Shown piece by piece: positions 45 to 34,734 of a stretch of DNA of 35,103 nt. Position 1 is the stretch's first letter. Each line of letters opens with the position of its first letter. Origin of the DNA: a virus; the IMG/VR virus record IMGVR_UViG_3300045996_002019, positions 1 through 35,103 of that record; one strand, 5' to 3'. The position numbers and the translations under genes are program-made. The notes beneath the pieces were generated by a model. That model did no database searches. It was not told the DNA's origin and was given only the letters and a program-made list of their open reading frames with translations.

Positions 45-1979
45 ATGAGTGCGGCTCACCCACTTGGCCTACCGGACGGCGGCGAAGCGCCGCCGTGTGT
101 GAGCTGCGGCCTGCCCGGACGCTGGCGGCCAGCGCCACCCGGTGGCGAGTCCCTGCCCGTGTGCGACGTCGAGTGGCAGCTCGCCGAAGGCCTTACGGCG
201 ACCGCGGACACCGTGGCGCTGCGCGATCCGGACCCCACCAGCTGGGCACGCGAGTCCGCGGTCGCCTGGGAGGACGAGCACGAGTCCGGCCTGATGGTCG
301 CCGAGCTGCTGCGCCGCGGTGTGCGCTGGCACCTGCTCCGGTGGATCGATCCGGCCAGCCGGTGGATGTGGTACCAGCAGTTGGCCAAACGGCGGCCGCC
401 GGACGGCACCCGGCGCGCGGTCGAGGGCGGCCAGGTGTGGCTCGACCACTGGGCCGAGGTCGTGGCCGCGCAGGGCTGGCAGGCCCGACGCCAGGAGAAG
501 TGGATGCGCTGGGCGGAGAAGGTCGCCGGCGCGGTCCCCGTCGACGGGGGAGCGCTGACCCGTGACGGCTGCACGCTGCCCGAGCTGGCCGAGCACATCG
601 GCTGCAGCGAGGACTACGTCAGCGACATCACCGCGTGGTGGATCGAGCAGGGCGCGGTGCACGTGCCCGTGCCCGGCACCCGCAAGAAGGCCATGCCCGC
701 ACCCTCCGACGAAACCCCGGAGGAGGCCGCCGAGCGAGAAGCACGCGAAGCCGCAGCCGCCGCGCGGGCCGTCGCCCGCACCGAGGCCGCACGCGGCCAG
801 GTGGTCGAGCTCGACGTGTTCCGTGGCAGCGAACCGGTGGCCGTTCCGGAACCTGCGCACGGCTGCCCGTACGTGCGCACCGACGCCAAGACGGGGGAGC
901 GGTGGGTGCACGTCGCCCAGGTCTACGAGCTGCGGCTGCCGGCGCCGTCAGAGGCTTCCGAGCTGCCCGCCGAGGCCTGGGGTGACCGGAAGGTCGTCTC
1001 ACTCGGGAAGGCCCGTCAACGGCGAGCTCAGGGCCGGCACGGCCGCCTGAGAGCCAAGCACGTCCAGCCCGGTCGCCTGGCGGTCCTACCTGGGCAAACG
1101 AAAAAGTCCGGTCCCAACGACCCCCTTGTAGAAAGAGATCGTCCAAGCAGTTCCGGCGCGGTTGTGGAAGAACGAGCGGCTTCGCCGCGCTCATACGACG
1201 GCAGCTCGACCCGGTCGAGGGGTCCGAATCAGGCCACCCGGCCGCCGTCACGCGTCGTACGTGCAGCTCAGCGTCTGCTGGGGCGTCTCCAGAAACCCGG
1301 TGAAACGCCCGGTGACGAGGGTAAGCGCACGCTGCCGCCGCAGCTGCGCGAGGTGACGGTGGCGTGGCTGGCCCGCCGCATCGCCCGCCACGTGCTGGCC
1401 GGCTGGACCGACCGCGAGCTGGTGCGGGCCATCGCCCACGACGGCGGCCGCCACCCGCACTGCTCGCCGAGCGTGCGCAACGCCGCGGCGTTCATCGCCG
1501 CGGCGCTGCGCCGGTGGCCGGCCGAGACCCCGTACCGCACCGTCGACGAGCTCGACCGGGCCGAGGCGGTGCGCCAGGCCGTCGACGCCGTCGAGGAGCT
1601 CAACGCCGCGAAGGCCCGCGCCCGCGACGCCCGTGCCCGCGGCATCCGCCAGGCCATCGACGAGTGCCCACGCTGCGACACCGACGGCTTCCTCGAGCGC
1701 CCGGCCCGCCACGCGGACGGCATCGTCGTCGACCGCTGCGACCACCAGGACCCCGACCCGCTGGCCGAGCTGTCCGCCGAGGACCGGCGCCGCGCGCAGG
1801 ACGACCTGATCGCCGACACGTTGGAGCGGGCCCGCCTGCACCGCGAGCAACGCCTGGCGGCCGAGGGCAAGCGCCCCGTGCTCAAGCCCCCGAAGCCCAC
1901 CCCGCCCCGACGCCACCGGCGACGCGAGGGCGGCGCCTGGAACGGCCACGACTTCGACCCCCGCGACCGCTGGCGCTGA
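45..1979 (+). CDS. Putative replication initiator-like HTH/zinc-finger protein
   Basis: A 644-residue protein beginning at ATG 45. The N-terminus has a Cys cluster (CVSC at about residues 18-21, another Cys near 40). A winged-helix-like segment follows near residues 175-205 (TLPELAEHIGCSEDYVSDI). The middle third (about 345-430) is polar and disordered-looking. A helical domain at about 430-530 precedes a second zinc-ribbon-like motif (C541, C544, C565, H567). This arrangement recalls the large HTH proteins of actinobacterial plasmids and phages that are suspected replication initiators; I recognise the type but cannot name a family with certainty. It is the first gene of the window and leads into the antitoxin-like gene. 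The disordered middle is encoded by DNA with unusual codon use (see 1086-1325), which would fit an origin inside the rep gene. It could instead be a transcriptional regulator. Confidence 0.6.
   Translation: MSAAHPLGLPDGGEAPPCVSCGLPGRWRPAPPGGESLPVCDVEWQLAEGLTATADTVALRDPDPTSWARESAVAWEDEHESGLMVAELLRRGVRWHLLRWIDPASRWMWYQQLAKRRPPDGTRRAVEGGQVWLDHWAEVVAAQGWQARRQEKWMRWAEKVAGAVPVDGGALTRDGCTLPELAEHIGCSEDYVSDITAWWIEQGAVHVPVPGTRKKAMPAPSDETPEEAAEREAREAAAAARAVARTEAARGQVVELDVFRGSEPVAVPEPAHGCPYVRTDAKTGERWVHVAQVYELRLPAPSEASELPAEAWGDRKVVSLGKARQRRAQGRHGRLRAKHVQPGRLAVLPGQTKKSGPNDPLVERDRPSSSGAVVEERAASPRSYDGSSTRSRGPNQATRPPSRVVRAAQRLLGRLQKPGETPGDEGKRTLPPQLREVTVAWLARRIARHVLAGWTDRELVRAIAHDGGRHPHCSPSVRNAAAFIAAALRRWPAETPYRTVDELDRAEAVRQAVDAVEELNAAKARARDARARGIRQAIDECPRCDTDGFLERPARHADGIVVDRCDHQDPDPLAELSAEDRRRAQDDLIADTLERARLHREQRLAAEGKRPVLKPPKPTPPRRHRRREGGAWNGHDFDPRDRWR
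1086..1325. other. Codon-usage anomaly inside the rep-like gene; candidate internal origin
   Basis: By my hand count, 33 of the 80 codons here end in A or T, against 0 of 80 in the next equal block (1326-1565) of the same reading frame. The stretch contains A/T-rich runs near 1098-1140, a palindrome with 7-bp arms (CTCGACC at 1205-1211 and GGTCGAG at 1213-1219), and a direct repeat CCCGGTGA at 1296-1303 and 1308-1315. Selection on the DNA itself, such as initiator binding or unwinding, would explain this. Recent acquisition of the linker is the alternative. Some Streptomyces plasmids keep their origin inside the rep gene. The origin role is inferred. Confidence 0.35.
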
Positions 1980-3699: not shown

Positions 3700-3933
3700 C
3701 TCGTCGCCGGCGCGGTCGCCTGCCCCACGCAAAGGCTACCGACCGGTAACGTCCGGGTGGCCGAACACTTGTTCGTGGTACATCCCTATCGGCATGCGCC
3801 GCGCTCACGTTTCACCGTCCGTCGAATCGATATCGATCATCATGCCAATGGCCTAACCTGACGGACGCCAGTTGTCACGCACTGTGCACAAATGCGACTC
3901 TCACCCGCGTACAGCACAGGGGAGCGTGACTCA
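3700..3933. promoter_or_regulatory. Non-coding regulatory region upstream of the zinc-ribbon/HTH gene
   Basis: This gap is AT-richer than its surroundings and has two palindromic elements: TACCG-AC-CGGTA (3737-3748) and the perfect 12-mer ATCGATATCGAT (3826-3837). A weak promoter-like pair, TTGTCA at 3872 and GACTCT at 3896 with an 18-nt spacer, lies shortly before the start at 3934. AGGGGAG (3918-3924) is the ribosome binding site. No convincing gene is present from 3572 to 3933. Confidence 0.4.
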
Positions 3934-4989
3934 ATGCAACATCCTGAGGACAGCGACCCGTGCGCCTACCGAGCCTGTCTCGCGCCCCACGCGGTCGACG
4001 CCCGGATCTGCACCACCCATTTGGCCGAGCTGTGTCGGGCCCTCACCCGGATAGTGCGGGTCGAGGACGACCTCGACATCGTGATCAGCAGGCAGGCCAG
4101 GCTGAACGACCACGCCGGCGGTGGCCGCCCGGCGGAAAGACCCCTGCCGTTCCACTGGGACGGCAGCGACGCACTCGCAGCGCTGGTCAACACGATGACC
4201 ACCTGGGCCCGCTCCGTCGCGGCCGACGCCGGCTGGACCCTCGACCTGACCACCGTGGTCGTCCCGGCCCCGCCCAGGCACGGCCGCGCCGCCATGGTCG
4301 TGGTCACCCCAGAACCCCGGCCCCACCGCCGGCACCCCATGGCCGGCTCGCCCGTCGACGGCCAGCCGATCGTCGCACCCGGGACCGACGAGGACGGCCG
4401 GCCGCTGCCACCCCGCCACCACGACGACCCCGCCCAGCTGCCCTACCGGCCCGGCCCGGCCGCCCAGGCCGCCCAGTGGCTGCTCGACCACCCCAACCGG
4501 CTGCACGCGTTCGCCGACCTCGGCACGCTGGCCGAGGAGATCATCTACATCGGCGGCCGCACCCAGCACGTGATCGACCGGGCGCCCACCCGCTGGTACC
4601 TCGGGCTGTGCGACCACTGCGAACGGCCGCTCTACTGCCGACCCGAGCTGCCCCGCACGGTGTGCGCCAACCCCGACTGCGTCGACGAGGACGGCCGGCC
4701 CTGCGTCTACGACGTCGCCGACCGCCGGGCCTGGCTCATCGAGGCCGCCGCCGACTACATGGTCACCGCGGCCGAAGCCTCCCGCGCCGTGCCGCTGCTG
4801 GCCAACGACGCCACGGGCTGGTCCTACTCGACGTTTCGTGATCACCTGGGGCGGTCAATCCCGGCGGATCGGACACACCCGTCCGGTGATGGCCATCCGC
4901 GCTACCGACTGGGGGACTGCATCCGATGGGCCGAGGACCGCGCAGCCGCCGCAGCAGCTGCCCACCAAGCGCGCCAGATAGCCGGCTGA
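3934..4989 (+). CDS. Zinc-ribbon and HTH-containing phage protein
   Basis: A 351-residue protein. ATG 3934 is chosen because AGGGGAG sits 9 nt upstream; an earlier in-frame ATG at 3892 lacks one. The N-terminus has several Cys/His (CAYRACLAPH, ICTTHLAELC), then a Pro/Arg-rich linker at about 125-180. A clear zinc ribbon lies at C226-x2-C229 and C244-x4-C249 (CDHCERPLYC, then VCANPDC). Residues about 275-340 look like a winged-helix or MerR-like DNA-binding domain ending in RYRLGDCIRWAED. Proteins of this type occur in actinobacterial prophages and are presumed DNA-binding. It is transcribed alone, between a regulatory gap and a terminator, so it may be a regulator. No specific target can be named. 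Confidence 0.65.
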   Translation: MQHPEDSDPCAYRACLAPHAVDARICTTHLAELCRALTRIVRVEDDLDIVISRQARLNDHAGGGRPAERPLPFHWDGSDALAALVNTMTTWARSVAADAGWTLDLTTVVVPAPPRHGRAAMVVVTPEPRPHRRHPMAGSPVDGQPIVAPGTDEDGRPLPPRHHDDPAQLPYRPGPAAQAAQWLLDHPNRLHAFADLGTLAEEIIYIGGRTQHVIDRAPTRWYLGLCDHCERPLYCRPELPRTVCANPDCVDEDGRPCVYDVADRRAWLIEAAADYMVTAAEASRAVPLLANDATGWSYSTFRDHLGRSIPADRTHPSGDGHPRYRLGDCIRWAEDRAAAAAAAHQARQIAG

Positions 4990-8429: not shown

Positions 8430-8722
8430 CAACCCGATCACGTTGTCCCGGCTGCGCGAGGGATGTCGAGGCTGGCCGTACATACAAGAAGCGCGAGCGG
8501 CGCCCGTACAACCGCGCCGAGCTCGAACGCCGCGCGGCCGCGGTCGCCGACTGGATCGCCCGGCGCGGCTACTGGTGTCCGGGCTGGGGCGTGCCCGAGC
8601 ACCAGTCCACGGACCTGACCGCCGACCACGTGCACGCGGTCGCGGCGGGCGGCGCCGAGGACGGACCGCTCACCGTGCTGTGCAGGGCCTGCAACGGACG
8701 CAAGGGAGCACGCAGTGGATGA
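8375..8722 (+). CDS. HNH endonuclease
   Basis: A 115-residue protein starting at GTG 8375, with GAGGAGG (8364-8370) 4 nt upstream. The HNH/beta-beta-alpha-metal motif is clear: C68, D84-H85-V-H87, the GGAEDGPLTVLC segment, C103-x2-C106-N107 (LCRACNGRKG). An N-terminal Cys pair (C24-x2-C27) may bind a second zinc. HNH proteins encoded next to the terminase in siphoviruses are known to assist the large terminase in cleaving cos DNA, and the location about 700 bp before terS fits that job. A free-standing homing endonuclease is less likely given the position. Confidence 0.85.
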   Translation: MPLRLCLGRPGHPPCGELTTRSRCPGCARDVEAGRTYKKRERRPYNRAELERRAAAVADWIARRGYWCPGWGVPEHQSTDLTADHVHAVAAGGAEDGPLTVLCRACNGRKGARSG

Positions 8723-9128
8723 GCTGGACCGCGAGCCGAGGGCCGAGGCCAAGCGCACGCACGAGACCTACGGCGACCGGATCTACGTGCACAACACGGA
8801 CTTCGCCGAGGTGCTGACCATCCTGCGTGCCATGCCCGGAGCCCGTGCTGAACGTGAGGGCTGGCCGCTGGTGGAGACCGAGCGTGCCGTGTTCACCGGG
8901 CCGCACCTGGTCTGGGTGCCGGGCTCGACCATCACGGTCACCGCCGACCGCCCGCTGGGCCAGGCCCTGCCCCACCAGGTGGGTCGGCAGGTGCGCTACC
9001 TCGACCACGTCGACCGCGTCGATCCGCTCGGCGTGGTCGGACCGTGGGCCGCGGCACCCGAGGACGTGGTGGCCAGCGACTGGACCGTGAGCTGGCCGCG
9101 CGACACCAGCCCGCGCCGGTCGGGCTGA
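8715..9128 (+). CDS. Hypothetical protein after the HNH gene
   Basis: A 137-residue protein with ATG 8715 overlapping the HNH stop by 8 bases. The N-terminal third is charged and helical; the rest is beta-rich (VFTGPHLVWVPGSTITVTAD) with a Trp-rich C-terminus. No known domain is seen. It is the last gene before the non-coding packaging-like region, so it may be co-expressed with HNH. Confidence 0.6.
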   Translation: MDELDREPRAEAKRTHETYGDRIYVHNTDFAEVLTILRAMPGARAEREGWPLVETERAVFTGPHLVWVPGSTITVTADRPLGQALPHQVGRQVRYLDHVDRVDPLGVVGPWAAAPEDVVASDWTVSWPRDTSPRRSG

Positions 9129-32550: not shown

Positions 32551-33461
32551 GCTACGTGATCCCCACCGGCACCCAGGACGCTCCGGAGCTGGCCGCGCGG
32601 CTGGCCGCGCTGTGGGCACCGGCCCCGCCGAACGGCGCCGTCGTCCGCGACGAGTACGACCACGACCAGTGCACCGGCGCCGACGACTGCTCGTGCTCGT
32701 GGCACATGCACCAGCACCACGTGCGCACCGCCCGCTGCCAGCGGACCGACTGCGCCAGGCCGACCCGTTACCGGCTGCGCATGTGGAAGCCGAACGGCAC
32801 CACCACCTTGCAGGCCGGCGAGCTGGGCCGCGGCGAGAACCCCGACGAGTGGCTGACGTTCAGCGAGGAGCCCTGGTACCTCACCGGATCCGAGCGCTAC
32901 GCCTGCGACCGGGACCACGCCTACGAACTGGCCGAGCTGCTGCGGCTGCGCTACGCCACCCCGGACGACGACGAGGCCACCCGGTGGCGCGTGCTGATCG
33001 AGCCGCACCGGTACGAGCCTGACGGCTACGACCTGGCCGGCACCGGCATGGTGTGGCTGCAGACGCTGGGCACCACCATCCAGTACGGGGTGCGCCAGCT
33101 GGTCGACCTGGTCAACCCGTACGCGGTCCATCCCCACCGCGATGCCGCCTACGTGCTCGACCACGTCCGCCGCTCGGCCGCCGAGCTGGCCGTCGAGCTG
33201 GCCCGACTGGACACCAGGCCTGTGCCCCAGGCCCGCTACACCGACGCCATCCCGGCCGAGGTCAACGCGGTGCGCACCGCACCGGACGGCCCGATCGTCC
33301 GGCGTCGTGTGCCGACCGGCCCGACCTCGGGCTGGTTCACGCTCACCACCCACGTGTCCTACGAGTCCGACGACGAACTGCTGGCCGCGTACCCCGGCGG
33401 CCTGTACGAGCTCGGCCGGTCCGAGCTGGTCCTGCCGGACGACACGGAGGAACAGCCGTGA
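32547..33461 (+). CDS. Hypothetical protein with Cys/His-rich N-terminus
   Basis: A 304-residue protein from ATG 32547. Residues 38-70 are dense in metal ligands (DHDQCTGADDCSCSWHMHQH, then HVRTARCQRTDC) and probably bind zinc. A region of strands follows (RYRLRMWKPNGTTTLQAGEL), then helices with YACDRDHAYELAELLRLRYA, and a beta-rich end (TSGWFTLTTHVSYESDDELL). No catalytic signature is evident. It overlaps the short membrane peptide gene by GTGA. Confidence 0.65.
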   Translation: MSYVIPTGTQDAPELAARLAALWAPAPPNGAVVRDEYDHDQCTGADDCSCSWHMHQHHVRTARCQRTDCARPTRYRLRMWKPNGTTTLQAGELGRGENPDEWLTFSEEPWYLTGSERYACDRDHAYELAELLRLRYATPDDDEATRWRVLIEPHRYEPDGYDLAGTGMVWLQTLGTTIQYGVRQLVDLVNPYAVHPHRDAAYVLDHVRRSAAELAVELARLDTRPVPQARYTDAIPAEVNAVRTAPDGPIVRRRVPTGPTSGWFTLTTHVSYESDDELLAAYPGGLYELGRSELVLPDDTEEQP

Positions 33462-33580
33462 GCCGACGCCGCTACCGTCACCCGCTCAGCCGGAGCGGCT
33501 TCGACACCGTGATGTTCGTGCTGCCGTTCGTGGTCGTCGCCGTGCTGGTCACTCTGGCCCTGACCGGGAACCTGGGATGA
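33458..33580 (+). CDS. 40-residue single-span membrane peptide
   Basis: A short frame from GTG 33458 in a GTGA overlap. It has a basic start (MSRRRYRHPLSRSGFD) and one hydrophobic segment (TVMFVLPFVVVAVLVTLALT), ending GNLG. Its stop overlaps the ATG of the recombinase gene (ATGA). The arrangement makes it both a probable inner-membrane peptide and a coupling element for recombinase translation. Confidence 0.6.
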   Translation: MSRRRYRHPLSRSGFDTVMFVLPFVVVAVLVTLALTGNLG

Positions 33581-34734
33581 CCACCGAGCACGAAGTACTC
33601 GACGGCGAGCTGGTCGACGAGCGGCCCGGCCTGCCGGCGATCCCGGCCGGCCGCGCCGTCGACCGCCTCGACGACCGGGCCCGCCGACGCCGGGATGCGG
33701 CCATGCCGATCAACACCAAGCGCGCGTACGCGCGCCTGGTGTACGGCCGGATCGTCAAGGTGTCCGAGGACGGAAAGACGATCGACGCCGGCCCGGCCGG
33801 CCCGGTCAGCACCGGCCAGGCCGGCATCGACTGGGCCGACATGGCGTGGGTGCCGTGGTGCCGGGAGACCGGGCGCCCGTCCGGCCTCGACGGTGTACCG
33901 GCATCCGAGGAATCGCTGGGGCAGTGGGTGTCCGAGCTGGCGGACCTACGCGTCGGAGCGCCGCAGATCGAGCAGGCGATCTACGCCGTGCGCCGGCTGC
34001 ACCGCGACAACAAGATGCCCGGCCAGCCGCAGACCGACACGGCCCTGGCGATCCTGCGCACCTACCGCAGGGACGAAGGCGGCGCGCGGCCGGTCGACCG
34101 GGCCAAGCCCTTGGAGACGCGATCGCTGCGGCAGATGCTCAACGCGATGCCGACCGGCCCGGACGGACAGCTCTCCCCCATCGGCGTGCGCGACGCCTTC
34201 GTGCTCGTGGCCGGGGTCAAGGCGATGTTGCGCCGCTCCGAGCTGTTGGCCCTGCGGATCGAGCACACGCGGGTCGGTGACCGCGGCGTCGAGTTGTGGC
34301 TGCCCGCGTCCAAGACGGACAAGGACGCCAAGGGCGCGAAGATCGTCATTCCCCGTGACGACGCGGGCGACCCGAAGTGGGACGTCACCACGCTGCTGGC
34401 GGCCTGGCTGCGGCTGCTCGCCGAGCAGGGCATCACCACGGGACCGCTGGTGCGGTCGGTGAACCGGCACGGCCGTATCGGTGGCCCGTTGAACTCCGGC
34501 GCCAAGGACATCGACCGCCTGGTCAAGCGCGCCGCCGTGCGCGCGGGCTTGGATCCGGACGGCTGGAAGGGCCACAGCATGCGGTCCGGCGGTGCGTCCG
34601 CCGCACACGCGGGTGGCGCCTCCTACGGCGCGATCCAGCGCCAGGGCCGCTGGTTGAGCCTGGCCCAGGTCATGGTCTACATCCGCGATGCCGAGCAGTG
34701 GACCGGCAACGCAGCCTCCCGAATCCACCTGTAA
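33577..34734 (+). CDS. Cre-like tyrosine recombinase
   Basis: A 385-residue protein starting at ATG 33577 in an ATGA overlap. The catalytic set is complete: R219 (MLRRSELLAL), E222, K246 (ASKTDKDAKG), H333 and R336 (KGHSMRSGGASAAHAGGASY), W359 (GRWLSLAQ) and nucleophile Y368 (VMVYIRDAEQWTGN). The GHSxR-x-G-A and VMxYIR-x4-TG pattern closely follows Cre of phage P1 rather than lambda-type integrases. The N-terminal core-binding domain (INTKRAYARL through WVPWCRETGR) carries a roughly 30-residue insertion at about 55-85. It ends the operon that begins beside the lox-like palindrome, so resolution of plasmid dimers or circularisation of the phage DNA is the likely role. Chromosomal integration cannot be excluded. 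Confidence 0.88.
   Translation: MTTEHEVLDGELVDERPGLPAIPAGRAVDRLDDRARRRRDAAMPINTKRAYARLVYGRIVKVSEDGKTIDAGPAGPVSTGQAGIDWADMAWVPWCRETGRPSGLDGVPASEESLGQWVSELADLRVGAPQIEQAIYAVRRLHRDNKMPGQPQTDTALAILRTYRRDEGGARPVDRAKPLETRSLRQMLNAMPTGPDGQLSPIGVRDAFVLVAGVKAMLRRSELLALRIEHTRVGDRGVELWLPASKTDKDAKGAKIVIPRDDAGDPKWDVTTLLAAWLRLLAEQGITTGPLVRSVNRHGRIGGPLNSGAKDIDRLVKRAAVRAGLDPDGWKGHSMRSGGASAAHAGGASYGAIQRQGRWLSLAQVMVYIRDAEQWTGNAASRIHL

Follow-up and report, generated by a model that had tools for sequence, protein, structure and literature searches.

The break in codon usage within the first gene of a 35,103-bp virus record (hereafter the window, meaning the whole stretch of DNA analysed, which IMG/VR classes as linear) is very probably a theta-type replication origin that lies inside its own initiator gene and belongs to an actinobacterial temperate phage of the Pseudonocardiaceae type; replication itself is untested. 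In the best reading, this origin is written into the coding sequence for a flexible linker between two protein domains. An embedded origin had already been suspected by a first-pass annotation of this DNA, and the suspicion gained support from conserved synonymous sites, a dip of third-position GC (GC3) at the homologous place in related genes, a DnaA-box-like site and a covarying hairpin (no replication data).

A rep-like gene with a codon-usage break

The gene and the break are located as follows.

45 to 1979, plus strand: rep-like gene, 644 aa, the first gene of the window
1086 to 1325, plus strand: codon-usage break (GC3 0.59) by in-frame codon count, with a dip at homologous columns in 13 genes

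Phage genes in the window encode terminase, portal, capsid, tail and endolysin, and a tyrosine integrase is found at 33142-34734; no other replication genes were found among the larger ORFs scanned. The gene at 45-1979 is probably the replication initiator, its initiator role being inferred. The 644-aa Rep-like protein has a zinc-finger-like CxxC at its N-terminus, followed by a winged-helix-like region (about aa 80-215), the disordered stretch encoded by the putative origin, and a helical C-terminal domain with a C-terminal CxxC...CxH knuckle. HTH matches were weak, scans led to no significant Pfam, PHROG, NCBIfam or PADLOC family, and the structure models were of low confidence (pLDDT 43 and 65; prediction from two sequences only).

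Twelve homologues of the rep-like gene with about 25-39% identity were obtained from Pseudonocardiaceae plasmids and phages. The first distant relatives, detected by tblastn, were located on one Amycolatopsis and one Prauserella plasmid and were later joined by Saccharothrix and P. muralis plasmids, and a profile search of 390 Pseudonocardiaceae genomes led to eight further usable rep-like genes. No close relatives of the single Rep sequence were detected in viral_contigs, genome_contigs or the phage records; with the Rep alignment, a single plasmid was retrieved in the first scan of genome_contigs and no match in the scans of viral_contigs. As a class-wide search revealed full-length members in the P. 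muralis genome only, the family is apparently confined to Pseudonocardiaceae. A chromosomal remnant of a rep gene, with one stop and one frame break, was also observed (L019; G351 C1:1023627-1024030).

The nearest relative is contig 34 of genome G248 (L039, L046, L047), which shows the phage gene order of the window and carries an integrase homologue. It has 42,988 bp with an exact terminal repeat of 127 bp, as expected of a circular molecule, and hence represents a circle of 42,861 bp, probably a circular relative of the window's phage in episomal or excised form. This closest relative carries its phage genes on a circular contig, so elements of this kind do exist in circular form. Adjoining rep, the region 3892-4989 of the window encodes a phrog_908 protein of unknown function, which is conserved in the circular relative, where it occurs in two copies (L039, 12699-13736 and 13977-15023). 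A weak Tad2-like (anti-Thoeris) match at 8715-9128 (E = 2e-4, under the curated cut-off) also has a homologue there. The complete plasmids carry the family gene close to parA/parB and have no annotation of a second rep gene. The plasmid ParA/ParB, used as queries, matched neither the window nor L039, the related stretch of the phage contig, and the gene with its element is what plasmids and phages have in common at the rep locus.

The first-pass annotation had counted 33 of 80 codons ending in A/T at 1086-1325 against 0 of 80 at 1326-1565, and both numbers proved exact. Upstream of the block, 12/80 (846-1085) and 11/80 (606-845) such codons were found; the break is genuine, and its 3' edge is sharp. 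The proposed check of third-position GC revealed a drop at the homologous place in 13/13 genes, with GC3 falling to about 40-65% between the winged-helix-like half and the C-terminal domain. Synonymous sites no more conserved here than elsewhere in the homologues had been named as a refuting outcome. When codons were compared at positions with the same amino acid in two homologues, with local codon use as expectation, conservation among the 13 homologues was far above chance within the block (z = 18 at 1125-1184 and z = 22 at 1160-1196, compared to a maximum of 4.8 outside the block), and that outcome was not seen. The same codon was used for a shared amino acid in 70% of cases at 1125-1184 (35% expected) and in 85% at 1160-1196 (31% expected), and conservation at the DNA level is in this respect a direct observation.

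The element: AT-rich stretch, box and hairpin

Within and around the conserved region, the following features were assigned.

1087 to 1146, no strand: AT-rich candidate for unwinding (48% AT); no 60-bp stretch in the 35,103-bp window has a higher AT content
1101 to 1117, no strand: upstream motif AAAAAGTCCGGTCCCAA, counterpart of the homologues' AAAATGTCCACCCCCC in the DNA alignment, weakly conserved in the window
1163 to 1171, minus strand: DnaA-box-like 9-mer, TGTGGAAGA on the plus and TCTTCCACA on the minus strand
1176 to 1188, no strand: hairpin GCGGC-TTC-GCCGC with a 5-bp stem, bottom-strand triloop C-GAA-G
1189 to 1245, no strand: downstream flank with raised synonymous conservation (z = 9.2 at 1185-1244), probable 3' part of the element

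The AT-rich neighbour is observed in the window and beyond it: the AT-richest 60-mer beside the element belongs to the top 0.02% of windows both in the record and in the circular relative, whose AT-richest spot likewise adjoins its element. Within the genes themselves, the most AT-rich 60-mer begins 45-116 nt upstream of the box in 12/13 homologues. The upstream motif at 1101-1117 is possibly a second box or a Rep site. The 9-mer itself is of the TGTGGATAA type, and the conserved DNA reads TGTGGA(T/A/C)(A/G)A, with the TGTGGA core at the homologous position in 13/13 genes. On the bottom strand, the box is TTATCCACA in seven genes, TTGTCCACA and TCATCCACA in two each, TTTTCCACA in one and TCTTCCACA in the window, the latter being degenerate and off consensus. 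With a DnaA-box-like site in the putative origin, one criterion of DnaA-dependent plasmid origins is met (no DnaA-binding data).

The box is followed by the 5-bp stem with a loop of TTC or TCC, and this hairpin is fully paired in 13/13 copies, 65/65 pair cells being standard. Six different stems were detected, each with its exact complement (CCGGC, CCGCC, CGGGC, CGCGC, CGCCC and GCGGC). Two-sided changes affect 4/5 stem pairs, the observed covariation was 0.595 compared to 0.133 for shuffled data (0/500), and at least six stem changes could be placed on the protein tree. As the amino acids encoded at the stem (PASP, PPSA, RPSG or AASP) vary with it, the DNA structure is what has been preserved at the hairpin. 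C-GNA-G is a loop type known to be very stable in DNA. The bottom-strand hairpin loops are all C-GNA-G, which favours, without proving it, a role of the hairpin in single-stranded DNA. Together with the TCGTTCTTCC that follows it, the hairpin scored as a terminator-like site on the minus strand, and the T-rich tail of this site is not kept in the homologues.

Two further details of the first-pass annotation proved wrong, and neither belongs to the functional parts. Short palindromes, said to be present in the block, are not enriched: none of 8 bp or more was found there compared to about 3.3 per 240 bp elsewhere in the first 2 kb, and the one functional-looking inverted repeat in the block is the hairpin at 1176-1188. 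The repeat described with a period of 12 bp is present as two copies of CCCGGTGA 12 bp apart (1296 and 1308), but the pair occurs in none of the related loci. Direct 7-mers in the 250 bp around the box were not above shuffles (0/13 homologues), and the criterion of iteron-type theta replicons, tandem direct repeats, is not met, the CCCGGTGA pair being unique to the window. GC skew was analysed for four complete family plasmids and switched at the element in pAS20800 only, not in the other three. In pAS20800 (L002), the maximum of the detrended cumulative GC skew, at about 11,654 of 89,490, is 166 nt from the element.

From this arrangement, a mechanism may be proposed. Rep would bind the origin with its winged-helix half at a site that remains unidentified, iterons being absent, and host DnaA is inferred to bind the box at 1163-1171, upon which the AT-rich stretch just upstream (about 1087-1146), the inferred place of melting, would open. 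Located 13 nt into the element, the small hairpin might be extruded or might form on single-stranded DNA, and its putative function, likewise inferred, would be that of a docking or priming site for loading of the host helicase/primase. Replication would then run in theta mode.

Alternative readings of the element

Some rolling-circle plasmids such as pT181 have their origin within the rep gene, a precedent for a reading in which rep contains a double-strand origin of the rolling-circle type and Rep, as endonuclease, nicks it at the hairpin. Rolling-circle nick sites are also exposed in hairpin-like structures (PMC5714925). Nevertheless, we consider this possible but very unlikely, as the loop has only 3 nt, the family plasmids (84-134 kb, with parAB) are far above the usual rolling-circle size, no known rolling-circle Rep domain was detected in Pfam or NCBIfam scans, and the DnaA box and the AT-rich stretch suit theta replication better.

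Covariation alone cannot separate a DNA hairpin from an RNA hairpin. The covarying hairpin is located in transcribed sequence, and a structure in the rep mRNA (attenuator, translational or copy-number control) would give the same pair counts without any origin. However, a DnaA-box-type 9-mer is fixed beside the hairpin and an AT-rich 60-mer flanks it, neither an Rfam match nor a promoter-like site was found at the element, the terminator-like tail is restricted to the minus strand of the window and absent in the homologues, and the bottom-strand loops always belong to a stable DNA triloop type. An RNA element is for these reasons very unlikely.

Sites for partition, incompatibility, transfer or recombination are conserved DNA as well and can sit in coding sequence, and one of them might have come to lie within rep by chance. 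When 390 Pseudonocardiaceae genomes were searched with a 30-nt pattern of the element allowing up to 3 mismatches, 5 places were detected, all within the rep-like family. The element was never found apart from a rep-like gene in these genomes, an exclusive linkage that is directly observed. It is moreover common to parAB plasmids and to phages without a match to the plasmids' ParA/ParB, and the other genes of those phages are virion genes, leaving such a site highly improbable. That the disordered linker, poorly conserved as protein, merely shows codon usage that is relaxed or foreign can safely be dismissed. Relaxation lowers synonymous conservation, whereas here such conservation peaks exactly where GC3 is lowest, contrary to what relaxed codon choice would give, and another linker of the Rep-like protein (705-884 of the window) shows neither a GC3 dip nor raised synonymous conservation.

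The embedded theta origin is the best of the readings considered because the DNA-level element is inseparable from the rep-like gene and common to parAB plasmids and phages.

Comparison with known replicons and other Rep families

Conserved cis-acting DNA in the coding sequence of an initiator, between its domains, is one criterion of an embedded origin in the arrangement of lambda O, and it is met here. The lambda origin contains iterons bound by O. The Rep-like element has none and shows a DnaA-box-like site and a covarying hairpin instead. As in phage lambda, where ori is located within the O gene (PMC3640518), the putative origin sits in the inferred initiator gene, between the sequences for two parts of the protein, neighbours an AT-rich stretch and belongs to a temperate phage. 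No match to Phage_rep_O or a relative was found in Pfam or PHROG. The putative embedded origin is new as a combination of DnaA box and covarying triloop hairpin, and lambda-like by arrangement only.

Linear plasmids of the pSLA2 type are phage-like. Their rep1/rep2 system also belongs to actinobacterial theta plasmids but differs by its two-gene locus with helicase and iterons (no sequence was compared), Streptomyces pSLA2-type rep1 being described as the iteron/origin part (PMC13152386). The AICE RepAM replicons (pMEA300) are defined by a DUF3631 domain (PF12307) (PMC3218068), and identity with them was rejected on domain content, as no Pfam match to this domain was obtained.

For mycobacteriophage Miko, RepA has been characterised as the initiator: repA by itself suffices for plasmid replication in M. 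smegmatis, and the origin has, as for lambda, been assigned to repA itself or to the DNA upstream of it (PMC7157519). As an independent control, we compared ten RepA relatives from phages and plasmids (L092-L101), Miko, Rachaly and Jeeves being extrachromosomal mycobacteriophages. Their inter-domain stretch showed a GC3 of 0.33 and a synonymous z of 18, TGTGG boxes in 8/10 relatives, and 1.5 hairpins per 100 nt compared to 0.2 upstream, including CCGCC-GAA-GGCGG, CTCCC-GTA-GGGAG and GGCCGC-TAC-GCGGCC. Several covarying hairpins were observed inside repA of these relatives. Similar to the Rep-like family, Miko RepA has an HTH half, a GC3 dip with conserved synonymous sites and then a C-terminal part, with DnaA-box-like TGTGG sites and GC-rich hairpins with 3-4-nt loops; it differs by its size of only about 300 aa and its lack of zinc knuckles, and has two or three hairpins where the Rep-like family has one. 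Between the two families, protein similarity is marginal (14 bits, scored against a single sequence). As the Miko family shows the same signature, the origin of the RepA mycobacteriophages probably lies inside repA. A first synonymous peak (z = 13.6) was found at the very start of repA, and a second origin part upstream can therefore not be excluded.

A second Rep-like family of about 490 aa (L020-L038) occurs on 13 Pseudonocardia plasmid records, among them the 26-kb plasmid pPaSha3, which has no other Rep candidate. It shares the HTH half followed by a GC3 dip with TGTGGATGA and a synonymous z of 15-18, but its conserved flank is a different one, AAGTGGCGACCTCCCC, and its hairpin has 7 bp and is located 161 nt downstream. 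The dip is the family's own and contains TGTGGATGAAAGTGGCGACCTCCCC. The first 40 codons of its open frames are also unusually conserved, perhaps reflecting upstream regulatory DNA.

Tentatively, these cases may represent an undescribed origin class in actinobacterial plasmids and phages, spread over at least three barely related Rep families and in which one or more short GC triloop hairpins adjoin a DnaA box, always in rep between the DNA-binding and C-terminal domains, with the hairpin as a single-stranded docking or priming device; this generalisation is possible but far from secure. The combination of GC3 dip, synonymous conservation and hairpin offers a cheap finder of origins in coding sequences of high-GC plasmids and phages, and a possible use is in shuttle vectors for Amycolatopsis, Saccharothrix, Prauserella and related hosts. 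For a Rep family formerly without annotation, a concrete origin with named bases can be put forward, and for the RepA mycobacteriophages an answer is offered on the place of the origin, which had been left open (PMC7157519).
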